Of a DNA stretch of 24,569 nucleotides, positions 8,451 to 14,836 are shown piece by piece. Below the pieces are notes generated by a model that was not told the DNA's origin, searched no databases, and saw only the letters and a program-made list of their open reading frames with translations. Source of the DNA: an uncultured Nitrososphaera sp. GTDB lineage: Archaea > Thermoproteota > Nitrososphaeria > Nitrososphaerales > Nitrososphaeraceae. The stretch covers positions 1-24,569 of the forward strand of contig NZ_CAMLDP010000021.1 of the NCBI RefSeq assembly GCF_946478925.1, written 5' to 3'. How positions within the stretch are numbered: position 1 is the first letter of the stretch; the number at the start of each line of letters is the position of its first letter. A program made the position numbers and the translations under genes.

Positions 8451-10970
8451 CTAAAGCACGAAATACTCTGCCTGAGGGTGGTGGACCACTATTGCGGCAG
8501 TGGACTGGTCCGGAATTATCTGACCCGACTCTGTCAGACCCATCCCTGATTTTTCCGGGTCCAGTATCTGCCACACAAGATGGTGCTGCATCACGTCTGG
8601 GCAGCTAGGATACCCCCAGCTGTAGCGCAGGCCCCGCTTGTCGCCGATTTGAAGCTCTTTACGTATGCGGGCGTTGACCCACTCGGCCATCGCTTCTGCC
8701 GTTTCCACTGCAAGGCCGTGCAGGTAGTAGGCGTCTGTATAGCGGTCCTGCTTGTTCCACCCATCGATGACTTCGGTGACCTTTGTCCCGACTGTCACTG
8801 CCTGAAAAGCCGCAATGTCGTCCTTTCCGAAATAGTCTGCAAGGCACAGGTGCTTTTCCTTTGAAGACCTCGGAAACTCGAAAACGACCTGCTGATTGCC
8901 GGCATCTGCAAGGTCGACTGCCAGCCTGCCCGGGCCGGCGCTTGCCTGCGACAGGTTGTGGCAGCGGAAATACCCGTAGACCGCCCTAGGCTCAAACAGT
9001 TTTTCATCGATGACGCGCCCCGTCCACTCTGCAAACAGTTTTTCCGGGTCGCCGCTTTCGCTTGCGCCCTTGCCCCTTATTCCCCACTGCAGCACAAAAA
9101 GGGACTTTTTGCTGATGTGCTTCCAGATTTCTTTCAGGTCAAGGTCCGCCGGCTCTAGCCTCACCTGCCTGCCAATGTGCGGCGCCACCGGGGGTTCCAC
9201 CGGCTTTATCCCGCTGTGCGGCAGCAGGTCCGCGGTTTCCTGCACCGCCTGTTTCTCTGTCCATTTTTCCAGCTTTTGCCGCCAGTCGCCTATGAACTGC
9301 GACCTTTCGCCTGACACGAGCGCGTTCATCGCCCGCAGCCCGTCAAACGCGGTCTTGCAGTAAAAGACGCCGGGGTTGTATATTCCGCCGTCCTTGGCTA
9401 TCCTGTTGATGTAGTTGCTGTTTATCGCCGCGCCTCCGCACAGCACGGGGATTGCCATGTTGTTCTGCCTGGCGTGCTCGATAAAATACTGCATCTGCTT
9501 TGACGTCGACACGAGCAGCGCGGAAAGCCCGACAGCATCCGGCTTGACCTCCTCTATCTTTTCCAGTATCTTTTGCATGGGCACCTGCTTGCCTAGGTCG
9601 TAGACCGTGTAGCCGTTGTTTGCGAAAATCGTCTTGACCAGGTTCTTGCCGATGTCGTGCACGTCGCCGTACACCGTGCATAGCACTAATTTGCCCTTGC
9701 TCACCCCTTCCTGCTTTATCAGGTACTTTTCAAGCTCTGCGACTGCGGCCTTCATGCACTCTGCCGATTTCAGCACGAACGGCAGGATGAGCTCGCCTGC
9801 GCCAAACTTGTCGCCCACCTCCTTCATGGCCGGTAACAGGACTTCATTCAGTGTTTGCACCGCCGCCTCGTGCGCGGCTTCCCTATTTGCCTCCCGCCTG
9901 TCGCCTACGACTTTAGCTCCCGGTATGCGCCCTGCTATTGCCTGTACGACGTCAGCCTCTATTCCGTCCTTTAGCCGGTTTACTATGCGGAAATGGCATT
10001 TCTTGTCCGCGTCCCACGACGGGTCGACTTCGACGCGCTTGCTCGTACCAGACGCGACTTTGGCTTTCTCACCCTCAAAATGCGCGATGAGGTCGGCAAG
10101 CGCGTTCTGATGTTTGTTGAAAATAAGGTCCTCTGCGAGCCTCTTTTGCTCCGCGTCGATCTCCGGGTACGGTATGATGTCCTTGGCGCTGATGATTACG
10201 GTGTCAAGCCCCGCCTTTATGGCGTGGTACAGAAACACTGAATTCACAATCTTGCGCGCGCCAGCCGGAAGGCCAAAGCTGACGTTGCTCAGGCCAAGCG
10301 TGGTAAACGCATCGGGGAACCTCTGCTTGATGAGCCTGATGCCCTCAAGCGTGTTCTTGGCAGAGTCTGAAAACTCGGCCTCGCCCGTCGCAAGCGTGAA
10401 CGTGAGAACGTCAAAGATGAACTGCCAAGGTTCAAGCCCGTATTTCTTGCCAGTGTCGTACAATAATTGCGCGGTCTCTGCTTTTTCCTCTGCAGTCTTG
10501 GCCATGCCCTTTGGCCCGATGCACATCGCTATCGCCGGCAGGCCGTACCTTGCCATGAGCGGCGCAAGAGCGTGGAAACGCGAGCCGTCGCCTTCGAGGT
10601 TTATCGAGTTTATTATCGGCCTGCCCGGTATCTGCATCACCGCTGCTTCGACCACCTTTGGGTCGGTCGAGTCTATCACGAGGGGCGCCTCGACCTCCAG
10701 GCTCAGGCGCTTGACCAGCTTTTTCATGAACTCTAGTTCGTCCGACCTCTCTGTGGTCGCGACGCACACGTCGAGGCAGTGAGCCCCGTCCTCCACCTGC
10801 TCCCTTGCAAGGTTCACGAGGCCGTCAAGGTCGTCCTTCATGACCATCTCCTTGGCTTTTCTGGAACCCTGGGTGTTGAGGCGCTCGCCTATGATGAGGG
10901 GCGCCGGCTCTTGCTTCAAGTCGACTGCCTTGAGCGCCGAGCTGACGCGTGGTATTTTTTTCAACTGCAT
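8451..10970 (-). CDS. metH: Cobalamin-dependent methionine synthase, folate/B12/activation domains only
   Basis: Transfers methyl from 5-methyltetrahydrofolate through methylcobalamin to homocysteine. The 839-aa protein matches E. coli MetH (1227 aa) without its first third. Folate domain about 22-300 (IIGERLNTQGS at 26-36; LVIDSTDPK; NVSFGLPAGARK at 229-240). B12 cap and binding domains about 320-560, with axial ligand His438 in DVHDIG (436-441), SAL 483-485 and CGGAAI 511-516. Reactivation domain about 600-839, with AdoMet-site motif RGLRYSWGYPSCPD (779-792). The homocysteine/zinc domain is missing and is encoded at 13886-14836. Start ATG 10970 is 24 nt from an AAATATA box (10991-10997). 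Confidence 0.95.
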   Translation of the reverse strand: MQLKKIPRVSSALKAVDLKQEPAPLIIGERLNTQGSRKAKEMVMKDDLDGLVNLAREQVEDGAHCLDVCVATTERSDELEFMKKLVKRLSLEVEAPLVIDSTDPKVVEAAVMQIPGRPIINSINLEGDGSRFHALAPLMARYGLPAIAMCIGPKGMAKTAEEKAETAQLLYDTGKKYGLEPWQFIFDVLTFTLATGEAEFSDSAKNTLEGIRLIKQRFPDAFTTLGLSNVSFGLPAGARKIVNSVFLYHAIKAGLDTVIISAKDIIPYPEIDAEQKRLAEDLIFNKHQNALADLIAHFEGEKAKVASGTSKRVEVDPSWDADKKCHFRIVNRLKDGIEADVVQAIAGRIPGAKVVGDRREANREAAHEAAVQTLNEVLLPAMKEVGDKFGAGELILPFVLKSAECMKAAVAELEKYLIKQEGVSKGKLVLCTVYGDVHDIGKNLVKTIFANNGYTVYDLGKQVPMQKILEKIEEVKPDAVGLSALLVSTSKQMQYFIEHARQNNMAIPVLCGGAAINSNYINRIAKDGGIYNPGVFYCKTAFDGLRAMNALVSGERSQFIGDWRQKLEKWTEKQAVQETADLLPHSGIKPVEPPVAPHIGRQVRLEPADLDLKEIWKHISKKSLFVLQWGIRGKGASESGDPEKLFAEWTGRVIDEKLFEPRAVYGYFRCHNLSQASAGPGRLAVDLADAGNQQVVFEFPRSSKEKHLCLADYFGKDDIAAFQAVTVGTKVTEVIDGWNKQDRYTDAYYLHGLAVETAEAMAEWVNARIRKELQIGDKRGLRYSWGYPSCPDVMQHHLVWQILDPEKSGMGLTESGQIIPDQSTAAIVVHHPQAEYFVL

Positions 10971-11051: not shown

Positions 11052-11077
11052 GTAGCCGGGCCATGAAACCCGGCTAC
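11052..11077. repeat. Perfect 9-bp inverted repeat around a start codon
   Basis: GTAGCCGGG (11052-11060) and CCCGGCTAC (11069-11077) are perfect inverted copies with CCATGAAA between them. TGC/GCA flanks extend the pairing past one unpaired base. The start codon of the zinc-ribbon gene sits in the loop. If transcription starts at the ATG, as the box at 11031-11039 suggests, only half of the repeat is in the RNA and the site would act as DNA, for example an operator. Confidence 0.6.
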
Positions 11078-11191
11078 CGCAAGGTCGTGTGCGCAGAATG
11101 CGAGGCCATAGTAGGTTACGTCGCCATACAGCCGCACACCTCCACCATAGTCAAGGCGTACTGCGAGGACTGTTACCAGCAACTGCGCTAG
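11063..11191 (+). CDS. Very small zinc-ribbon protein (42 aa)
   Basis: From ATG 11063 the peptide begins MKPGYRKVVCAECEAIVGYV and ends in AYCEDCYQQLR. Two pairs, CAEC and CEDC, about 22 residues apart, form one complete zinc ribbon in only 42 residues. An ATGTTATCT box (11031-11039) is 27 nt upstream, so the mRNA should be leaderless. It is divergent from metH (92 nt between start codons) and convergent with the gene at 11188, sharing a CTAG at the stops. Function unknown. Confidence 0.65.
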   Translation: MKPGYRKVVCAECEAIVGYVAIQPHTSTIVKAYCEDCYQQLR

Positions 11192-12501
11192 GCTATTATC
11201 ACGCTCGGCGACATGGTCATAAAGATGCCATCAATCCCGAACCTTTTTTCCATCGTCTCCCTGTAGTCCATGAACCACTCGATATTCTCTGGCGTGTTTG
11301 GGGCGACTACGAAAAACCCTGCGTTGCTTTCGCCGTCTTGCCTAGTACCGTTCTTTATCGTAGTTCCGCTAAAAGTCGGGAGCACCGTGACTCCGCCAAA
11401 TCGTTCGGCAAGCTCTGTCCTTGCCTGCTCCAAAAGCTCCTGGCTGATTGCAGTCCCGTTGTCGCGCTTTGTAGAGAACAGGTAGTCAACCCTGACGTGG
11501 GGCGAGTCAAAAACCGTGCTGGCGGCTTTTGTAGTATTGCTGGTAGTGGTGGCGCCAAGGGCCTTTGCCTCCCTGTCAATCACGCCTGCCAGCTTGGCGT
11601 CATAGTCGGTTATCTTGTTCCCCGCGCTCCACGTATACAAATAGACTGACACGGTGCCATAGTTGTTGGTCCAGTCGGGGTGGTGGTTCATCTTTTCTGC
11701 CTCAAGGCCCACGTTGTACATGAACTGGAACGCCTGCACAAAGTCCTTGAACTGGAACGCCTTGTAGAGTTTGCCGCCTACTACCTGCCAGCCGGCAGAA
11801 TCGGTCAGCTCTTTTATCTGGGCTTCCGACAGGGGCGTGTACGCCATGCTATCGGATTTGACCGCCGTCTCTGGTATCAGCGTGCTGGCGGCGGTTTTTG
11901 TCATGTTTGCCAAGTTGTAGCCCGTGGCGTTTTCTGCGGGGCTGAACTTTTCAAGCGCGACCTTTTTCGTAAAGCCGTCAAAGGTGGCAGTCACCGTAAA
12001 CGGCGTCCCCTTTAGGCTGTGGAAGCCCACCGCGTTTGCCACCACTGCCATCGAACCGTGGTCCGCGGAATCCTGTCCCGCAAAGAACAGGGGCGAAGCG
12101 TAGGTCACGTTGTTGGACGGCTCTGTGTAGAGCGGAGGCGAGTTTGCCTGCGGCCCGTCGTAGTGGTGGTACGTGAAAAGCTCCACGGGGCCGCTGGCGG
12201 CCCAGGTGAGAGTCCCGCTGTAGATGACATCATCTCCAAGCGGCGGCAAAAACATTGCAGACTGATGCGCCTCGTGGCCCGGCGCAGGGTCTTGGCCAGA
12301 CGCCATAGTCTTTGTCACAAGGACTCTGCTCAGGATTGTCTGTGCCTCTGCATTCTGCTGCTGCGGCAGCAGGGCAATGCTCGTATATGCAAATGCGGTC
12401 AGAATCGACGCTGTGGCTATTGCCAGCGCAAGGCGCAGCGGCATCTTTTTCGCCGGTTTGCTCCTGTTGTTATCGTCACGCTTGAAAGAAGAAGAAGCCA
12501 T
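11188..12501 (-). CDS. Exported or membrane-anchored protein with a pterin-4a-carbinolamine dehydratase domain
   Basis: A 437-aa three-part protein. A basic start and one hydrophobic segment (about 23-46: LRLALAIATASILTAFAYTS) predict export or anchoring. Residues about 60-215 are an unrecognised beta-rich domain with sugar-attachment-type N-x-T/S sites. Residues about 223-310 match the dehydratase fold: YTPLSEAQIKELT, GWQVVGGKLYKAFQF, then the active-site signature EKMNHHPDW, with both His and the Asp-Trp present. A C-terminal domain of about 110 residues follows (VRVDYLFSTKRDNG, VTVLPTFSGTTIKNG). Ordinary PCD enzymes are about 100 aa and cytoplasmic. Start ATG 12501 is 26 nt from a TTTTATAG box (12523-12530); a TTG one codon earlier also fits. 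Confidence 0.85.
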   Translation of the reverse strand: MASSSFKRDDNNRSKPAKKMPLRLALAIATASILTAFAYTSIALLPQQQNAEAQTILSRVLVTKTMASGQDPAPGHEAHQSAMFLPPLGDDVIYSGTLTWAASGPVELFTYHHYDGPQANSPPLYTEPSNNVTYASPLFFAGQDSADHGSMAVVANAVGFHSLKGTPFTVTATFDGFTKKVALEKFSPAENATGYNLANMTKTAASTLIPETAVKSDSMAYTPLSEAQIKELTDSAGWQVVGGKLYKAFQFKDFVQAFQFMYNVGLEAEKMNHHPDWTNNYGTVSVYLYTWSAGNKITDYDAKLAGVIDREAKALGATTTSNTTKAASTVFDSPHVRVDYLFSTKRDNGTAISQELLEQARTELAERFGGVTVLPTFSGTTIKNGTRQDGESNAGFFVVAPNTPENIEWFMDYRETMEKRFGIDGIFMTMSPSVIIA

Positions 12502-12522
12502 CAAGCCACATAGAATCGTCAG

Positions 12523-12596
12523 CTATAAAACTTGGCGCAATAACTGCCTCCAGTTCGTGGGTTCTGCCTCTACTGCCGGGGATAAACCTTGTATAC
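12523..12596. promoter_or_regulatory. Divergent promoter pair
   Basis: TTTTATAG on the minus strand (12523-12530) is 26 nt from the ATG at 12501. CTTGTATAC on the plus strand (about 12588-12595) is 24 nt from the ATG at 12617. The 115 bases between the two start codons therefore carry both promoters. Confidence 0.5.
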
Positions 12597-13291: not shown

Positions 13292-13831
13292 ATGACACCA
13301 ATCACGGAATCCGTCACGTTCCGCTTTGAAAAGATGGTGCTTGAGCAGCTCAAGCGTGAGGCCGAGCAAAAGCGGATAAACCTCAACACGCTGCTCAACC
13401 AGATCGTCAAGTCTCATATTGAATGGCACGCACTTGCTCCGCAAGCCGGATACGTTCCTTTGCGCAAGCCGCTAATCCGAGGGATGGTGGATTCTCTGAC
13501 CCGGGAGCAGATCGATGAAATTGCAAATAGGTACGTGCAAGATGTATCGGATCCAACTCTGATGATAACTGGCAAAAAATTTTCACCAGAATCTTTTCTA
13601 GAACTTGTAGACCGGTGGATGAGGGCCACGGGTTTTGAGTACCAGCATGAAGTGAGCAAGAGCAACAATAATCACCGTCACTTTGTCTATGTAATCCTGC
13701 ATAACATGGGGCAGAATTGGTCTTATCTTATGGCGCAGATTCTCGGGCGAGCCGCTTCTAGCTTTACAATTAAAAAACCGGATATGCGGGCTACCGAGAG
13801 CACCCTCTACATTGCGCTAGATTTGGAATAA
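13292..13831 (+). CDS. Ribbon-helix-helix-like protein with unknown C-terminal domain
   Basis: A 179-aa protein. Residues 5-45 (ESVTFRFEKMVLEQLKREAE, KRINLNTLLNQIVKSHIEW) have the strand-helix-helix pattern of MetJ/Arc-type DNA-binding proteins, where the first strand contacts DNA as a dimer. Residues 60-179 form a separate alpha/beta domain (ESFLELVDRWMRATGFEYQH, RHFVYVILHNMGQNWSYLMA) that could sense a ligand or mediate dimer contacts. No membrane segment. Start ATG 13292; a CATATAG box is about 21 nt upstream. A transcriptional regulator is the likely role; its targets are not visible. Confidence 0.65.
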   Translation: MTPITESVTFRFEKMVLEQLKREAEQKRINLNTLLNQIVKSHIEWHALAPQAGYVPLRKPLIRGMVDSLTREQIDEIANRYVQDVSDPTLMITGKKFSPESFLELVDRWMRATGFEYQHEVSKSNNNHRHFVYVILHNMGQNWSYLMAQILGRAASSFTIKKPDMRATESTLYIALDLE

Positions 13832-13885: not shown

Positions 13886-14836
13886 CTATTTCGATGATGG
13901 CGTCGTCTCAAGGACGCGCCGAAGCTCTGCAATGTGCTCCGGGTTTGTGCCGCAGCACCCTCCTATCAGGCGCACGTTCTTGTAGCTTTTGACAAAGTCT
14001 GCCATCCTGTGCGCAATCTCGTCGGGCCCCATCTTGTAGACCGCCTTTCCGCCCTCGTTGTGAGGCATCCCTGCGTTTGGCATGACCAGTATGGGCAGGT
14101 CCTGCTCTGCCAGCCACTTGATGCTTGGCTCCATCTCGGCCGGCCCCGTCGAGCAGTTGAGGCCAAAAAAGTCGATACCCATGTCGCTCACCGTCGTGTA
14201 CGCGGCCTGCACGCTTGTCCCAAGGAGCATCTTGCCGTACTGGTCGAGAGTCACGTTTGCGATTATCGGGACTTTTCTGCCTGCCTTTTCCATAGCCTGA
14301 TGGGACGCCTCGATTGCAAGCTTTACTTCAAGTATGTCCTGGCTTGTTTCTATCAACAGCGCGTCTGCGCCTCCCAGGATGAGCCCTTCTGCCTGCAGCG
14401 CAAACGCCTCCCTTATCTCGTCAAGGGGCTTTTGCCCGAGGTCCGGGTCGCTTGAGCTTGGCAGAAACCCAGTCGGCCCCATCGAGCCTATTACGTATCT
14501 ATTTTCAAACTCGTCGGCGACCTCTCGCGCAAGCTGCGCCGCCTTTTTGTTGAACTCGACTGTCTGGCCGCCATAGCCGTACTCCTCCAGCTTGAACCTG
14601 TTGGAACCAAAGGTGTTTGTCTCGATGCAGTCGGCGCCTGCCTCAAGGTAGCTGCGGTGGATCTTTTTTATCCATTCTGGCCTCGTAAGGATGAGGCCGT
14701 CGTTAAAGCCGTCCTTGCCGTCGGGAAAGTCCTCGGGCGCCGGATTGAGCTTTTGTATCTCTGTTCCCATTGCCCCGTCGAACAGCAGCCGCCTCTTTTT
14801 TGCGGCTTGTACGAACGGCTCTCTTTCTTGTGGCAA
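13886..14836 (-). CDS. Homocysteine methyltransferase module, the missing N-terminal part of MetH
   Basis: A 316-aa TIM-barrel protein that binds homocysteine through zinc. It aligns with MetH residues 1-350: LLFDGAMGTEIQ (17-28), ETNTFGSNR (72-80), GSMGPTG (117-123), and zinc ligands Cys228 (GLNCSTGPAEM), Cys294 and Cys295 (IGGCCGTNPEH). Since metH at 8451 lacks this domain, the two very probably form one methionine synthase. Alternatively it could act alone with S-methylmethionine as in MmuM, but the full N-terminal-MetH look and the context favour the split enzyme. Start TTG 14836, with CATTAAAT (14861-14868) 28 nt upstream. Confidence 0.9.
   Translation of the reverse strand: MPQEREPFVQAAKKRRLLFDGAMGTEIQKLNPAPEDFPDGKDGFNDGLILTRPEWIKKIHRSYLEAGADCIETNTFGSNRFKLEEYGYGGQTVEFNKKAAQLAREVADEFENRYVIGSMGPTGFLPSSSDPDLGQKPLDEIREAFALQAEGLILGGADALLIETSQDILEVKLAIEASHQAMEKAGRKVPIIANVTLDQYGKMLLGTSVQAAYTTVSDMGIDFFGLNCSTGPAEMEPSIKWLAEQDLPILVMPNAGMPHNEGGKAVYKMGPDEIAHRMADFVKSYKNVRLIGGCCGTNPEHIAELRRVLETTPSSK

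Follow-up and report, generated by a model that had tools for sequence, protein, structure and literature searches.

The window analyzed here, a stretch of 24,569 nucleotides from an uncultured Nitrososphaera sp. (contig NZ_CAMLDP010000021.1, positions 1 to 24,569), encodes on its minus strand a protein in which a pterin carbinolamine dehydratase (PCD) domain follows a putative export signal and a further N-terminal domain. PCD is a textbook cytoplasmic enzyme of cofactor recycling and is normally tiny. We tentatively read the window protein as an exported protein of Nitrososphaera-type ammonia-oxidizing archaea, in which the PCD domain binds pterin and is probably still a dehydratase, and the N-terminal domain docks to a partner or binds metal. 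The coding frame (11188..12504, minus strand, stop at 11188) gives 438 residues from TTG at 12504 or 437 residues from ATG at 12501. The database cluster holding the window protein (P0001) begins at the ATG; residue numbers below are those of the 438-residue form. The candidate export signal (12343..12501) has a Lys/Arg-rich start, a hydrophobic segment at about residues 25 to 46, and an AEA box at residues 52 to 54. It is followed on the same strand by an N-terminal domain modeled as a β-sandwich (11962..12336, residues 57–181), the Pterin_4a domain (PF01329; 11572..11835, residues 224–311), and a C-terminal domain predicted to be α+β (11191..11508, residues 333–438). Pterin_4a is the sole Pfam domain of the protein (E value of 7.4e-25; 87.3 bits versus a cut-off of 26). 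The part N-terminal of it had no Pfam match above cut-off, and the C-terminal piece gave nothing above cut-off and a single chance-level row for another family (E value of 0.21). The first-pass annotation, which had described a PCD domain between two large unknown flanks, was thus borne out on this point.

A homologue search of 5.8 billion proteins (E ≤ 0.001; 7997 candidates scored) gave 16 hits. All three domains are present in P0002 from Nitrososphaera viennensis (75% identity over 99%), which lies on a 2.5-Mb contig, and also in the fragment P0003. Ten of the 16 hits (P0005–P0014; 284–312 residues) consist of the signal, the N-terminal domain, and the PCD domain, and then end; several of these come from contigs 1 to 4 kb in length, and P0009 is on a contig of 31 kb. 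Because these ten stop after the PCD domain, the aligned sequences indicate a core architecture of signal, N-terminal domain, and PCD domain, with the C-terminal domain added in only some members of the group. The three-part architecture proposed earlier therefore holds for the window protein, P0002, and P0003, but its C-terminal part falls outside the core. P0015 has only the C-terminal domain in common, placed after a dCache domain (dCache_1, E value of 7e-20), and P0016, also a PCD protein, differs in its N-terminal part. The hits bearing an organism name (P0002, P0004, and P0009) are all from Nitrososphaera, which suggests a Nitrososphaera-type archaeon as the origin of the window. Among these, P0004 (N. 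evergladensis) follows the family through the PCD domain but diverges from it after that point. Its C-terminal domain appears to be frame-broken, either by sequencing error or by decay of an accessory domain, which shows that this gene is subject to one or the other. The divergent C terminus of P0004 is the one feature in keeping with a fusion produced by sequencing error or misassembly, but the three-domain form is found in P0002 and P0003 and the two-domain form in ten more proteins. These independent homologues refute such an artefact in practice, and its probability is negligible. Since a three-domain homologue with 75% identity is present in N. viennensis, the compared sequences argue that the fusion is real and conserved, not a chance product.

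The motif EKMNHHPDW is located at residues 270 to 278 (11671..11697, minus strand). All 15 family members, the window protein among them, retain the Glu, His-His-Pro, Trp, Tyr, and Asp positions of this PCD motif. In the alignment, Trp292 (11629..11631, minus strand) occupies the third active-site His position of PCD/DCoH: in solved DCoH2 chains the aligned residue is that His, which corresponds to His79 of mammalian DCoH, and in 15 of 15 members it is Trp. The earlier claim of an intact active site is therefore only partly true, as EKMNHHPDW with its Glu and His-His pair is present but the third His is replaced. Variation of the His residues among relatives, which had been named as grounds for abandoning that claim, was not found in the sense implied; the His-His pair is invariant, and the third His is replaced uniformly, by Trp. 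The comparison set consisted of 80 loci out of 87 relatives, all bacterial by title, and the position matching Trp292 is His in 78 of them, a proportion biased to classical active sites because the words used to find the loci include KMNHHPDW. The broader PCD motif of Naponelli 2008 reportedly permits His or Trp at this position, and all 16 sequences compared fit it.

The domain belongs to PF01329 both by a profile score above the curated cut-off and by its predicted PCD fold. As to the enzyme itself (EC 4.2.1.96), the Glu and the His-His pair are in place, the third His is missing, and none of the five NCBIfam PCD equivalog models (PRK00823 models) reached its cut-off (best, 81.4 bits versus 108). 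With 438 residues and a signal, the protein is also not the small single-domain cytoplasmic protein expected for this activity. Compared with known PCD/DCoH proteins (PF01329; Protein Data Bank [PDB] IDs: 3jst, 4c45, 1ru0, and 1dch), the domain fold, the E-x3-HHP-x5-Y motif, and the conserved Trp and Asp are shared, whereas the export signal, the one or two extra domains, the Trp in place of the third His, and the scores below all five equivalog cut-offs set the window protein apart. The loss of the third His, fixed as Trp, and the fusion of PCD to other exported-type domains would also suit an exported protein in which the PCD fold is an oligomerization or protein-binding module of an envelope complex and carries out no pterin chemistry. 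A precedent for a nonenzymatic PCD fold is given by the PCD-like Rubisco assembly factors, acRAF (PDB ID: 4low) and plant RAF2, described in the available text as Rubisco chaperones (PMC4499774, PMC7714395). In contrast to these factors, the present family keeps most catalytic residues; Glu, His-His, Pro, Trp, Tyr, and Asp persist in every one of the 15 members, which is unexpected of a decayed site. To our knowledge, no PCD-like Rubisco assembly factor has an archaeal-type export signal. The first-pass annotation had raised both action on an exported pterin and use of the fold as a binding module. A scaffold role of the latter kind is a real possibility, and pterin binding is narrowly preferred over it.

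Export was also claimed by the first-pass annotation and is well supported by the sequence, in that a single strong hydrophobic segment, a charged start, and a signal-like box occur together. The best 19-residue mean hydropathy at the N terminus is 1.76, and the maximum past residue 60 is 0.87. Among the 13 PCD fusions with a complete N terminus (the window protein, P0002, and P0004–P0014), a positively charged start precedes the hydrophobic segment in 12 (the net charge is 0 in P0011), and an [AV][ED]A box (AEA, ADA, VEA, or VDA) follows it in all 13. The same type of box is found in eight of ten stand-alone relatives of the N-terminal domain (P0018, P0022, P0023, P0028, P0029, P0031, P0033, and P0034); P0017 is without it, and P0035 has VFA. 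The box resembles a cleavage site for signal peptidase I, which makes removal of the signal no less likely than its retention as an anchor. The membrane anchor of the earlier description was right as to one strong N-terminal hydrophobic segment after a positive start, but with the AEA box this may be a cleaved signal peptide. Cleavage is not certain because the stretch between the segment and AEA is 5 to 11 residues, varying with the chosen segment end. The same spacing would allow the segment to be a cytoplasm-facing anchor, with the enzyme acting inside the cell. The charged start in 12 of 13 proteins, the signal-like box, and the occurrence of the partner domains behind hydrophobic segments and with dCache speak against this location, to which we give only a slight chance. 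The window protein has seven sequons versus 3.5 expected, which is weak evidence for export; the excess was dropped as proof, as six counted relatives have only 0 to 5.

The AlphaFold2 model of the N-terminal domain (mean predicted local distance difference test score of 86) is nearly all β. His77 and His80, in His77-Glu78-x-His80 (12265..12276, minus strand), and His162 (12019..12021, minus strand) are invariant in both the 15-row and the 20-row alignments. The family also occurs as stand-alone proteins (among P0017–P0035), which carry the same domain behind a signal with the same three His invariant; no PCD fusion was found in those inspected, except P0019. The sources name an organism for P0026 (Nitrosopumilaceae) and P0029 (Nitrososphaerota). 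In P0028, P0029, P0031, P0033, and P0034, Met-rich, Cys-containing stretches lie between the signal and the domain; their composition is suggestive of copper binding. The protein might then be mainly a handler of copper or another metal in the pseudo-periplasm, in which His77, His80, and His162 bind the metal and assembly depends on the PCD and CutA-like domains. The invariant His residues, the Met-rich stretches of several stand-alone relatives, and the name "copper-binding protein" given to P0026 by its source (an unverified label) point in this direction, as does the copper dependence of ammonia oxidation in these archaea, as given in the available text of PMC7785015. However, neither "pterin" nor "dehydratase" occurs in the main text, as available, of the N. 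viennensis copper-limitation paper, and we consider this role improbable.

The C-terminal domain may have a CutA/PII-like fold. It differs from CutA1, PII-like, and SAM-lyase proteins in having no above-cut-off Pfam match and in its putatively exported context; a fold of this kind is common. The domain also occurs alone behind a hydrophobic segment. It follows a dCache sensor domain in P0015 (by Pfam) and P0040 (by eye), and no output signaling domain was recognized by Pfam in P0015.

Here, we propose how an exported pterin-binding protein of this kind might work. Delivery to the pseudo-periplasm would rely on a Sec-type signal that is either cut at AEA or stays on as an anchor. The PCD domain would still fold as a dehydratase and bind pterin in the conserved pocket, where dehydration of a 4a-hydroxylated pterin probably still takes place or leaked or oxidized pterin is held. 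The N-terminal β-sandwich would dock to an envelope partner or bind metal via its three invariant His residues, and the perhaps CutA/PII-like C-terminal domain, found only in part of the group, may add an accessory oligomerization or ligand site. In this proposal the domains, their conservation, and the Trp replacement are seen in the sequences and the folds are predictions, while export, pterin binding, activity, metal binding, and docking are inferred. Several points weigh against it. Trp invariably replaces the third active-site His, and all five equivalog models stay under their cut-offs. We know of no pterin or pterin-dependent enzyme outside thaumarchaeal cells, and our literature searches found no paper describing either in that location. 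In the available text of a study of the N. viennensis glycoproteome, the glycoproteins listed are only an S-layer protein and two multicopper oxidases (PMC12153357).

A further search found no paper pairing "Nitrososphaera viennensis" with "carbinolamine dehydratase"; "pterin" and "Nitrososphaera" co-occur in the available text of an F420 review. "Pterin" is absent from the main texts, as available, of PMC11131427, PMC10030591, PMC12153357, PMC7785015, PMC12448741, and PMC12542715. In the last five, the only occurrences of "dehydratase" are two titles on other enzymes in the reference list of PMC12542715; such term searches would miss a protein cited by locus tag or in supplements. A more specific version of the proposal, a pseudo-periplasmic pterin-handling enzyme or sensor that unites an exported His-to-Trp PCD family with a metal-binding β-sandwich and has extracellular pterin as its target, is rather doubtful. 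If it is true, ammonia-oxidizing archaea would use, scavenge, or sense pterins at their surface. A conserved exported PCD in soil nitrifiers would imply either that archaea carry out pterin chemistry outside the cell or that the PCD fold has been reused once more outside metabolism. The database name of these proteins, "4a-hydroxytetrahydrobiopterin dehydratase," masks the export signal, the extra domain family, and the altered active site.

The PCD frames of the 80 bacterial loci have a median length of 93 residues (range, 76–188), and in none of them does the mean hydropathy of any N-terminal 19-residue stretch exceed 1.6. This absence is uninformative on archaea because all of the loci are bacterial, yet N. 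viennensis has a homologue. In a survey of one phylum (Bacteroidetes by locus title), PF01329 matched in 158 of 198 genomes. Most open frames among the matches listed have 78 to 165 residues; longer ones among them have 283 (G148 and G196), 261 (G016), 230 (G080), 184 (G154), and 181 residues (G086), and exported PCDs may thus exist elsewhere. Seven of 14 control genomes gave PF01329 matches, including those of the archaea Haloferax volcanii and Sulfolobus acidocaldarius. A PhhB is also reported for nanohaloarchaea in the available text of PMC10266531.

The PCD gene lies between what look like the two halves of a split methionine synthase. On one side is metH (8451–10970, minus strand), with pterin-binding, B12-binding, and activation domains and without the homocysteine domain; on the other is a separate gene for a homocysteine S-methyltransferase domain (13886–14836, minus strand). 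The gap of 217 base pairs between metH and the PCD gene is partly filled by a small open reading frame on the plus strand (11063–11191; 42 residues), which has two CxxC pairs, is zinc-ribbon-like, and ends at the 3′ end of the PCD gene. A TATA-like box read by eye, TTTTATAG (12523..12530, minus strand), is 21 nucleotides upstream of the ATG at 12501, a position that would fit a leaderless transcript. The vicinity to metH pointed out at first is correct in that the gene adjoins it, but with its own TATA-like box and the opposite-strand frame in the gap, a functional link is unsupported. Upstream of the PCD gene, a plus-strand frame of 179 residues (13292–13831) has a weak CopG-antitoxin-like match at its N terminus (E value of 0.02, below cut-off).
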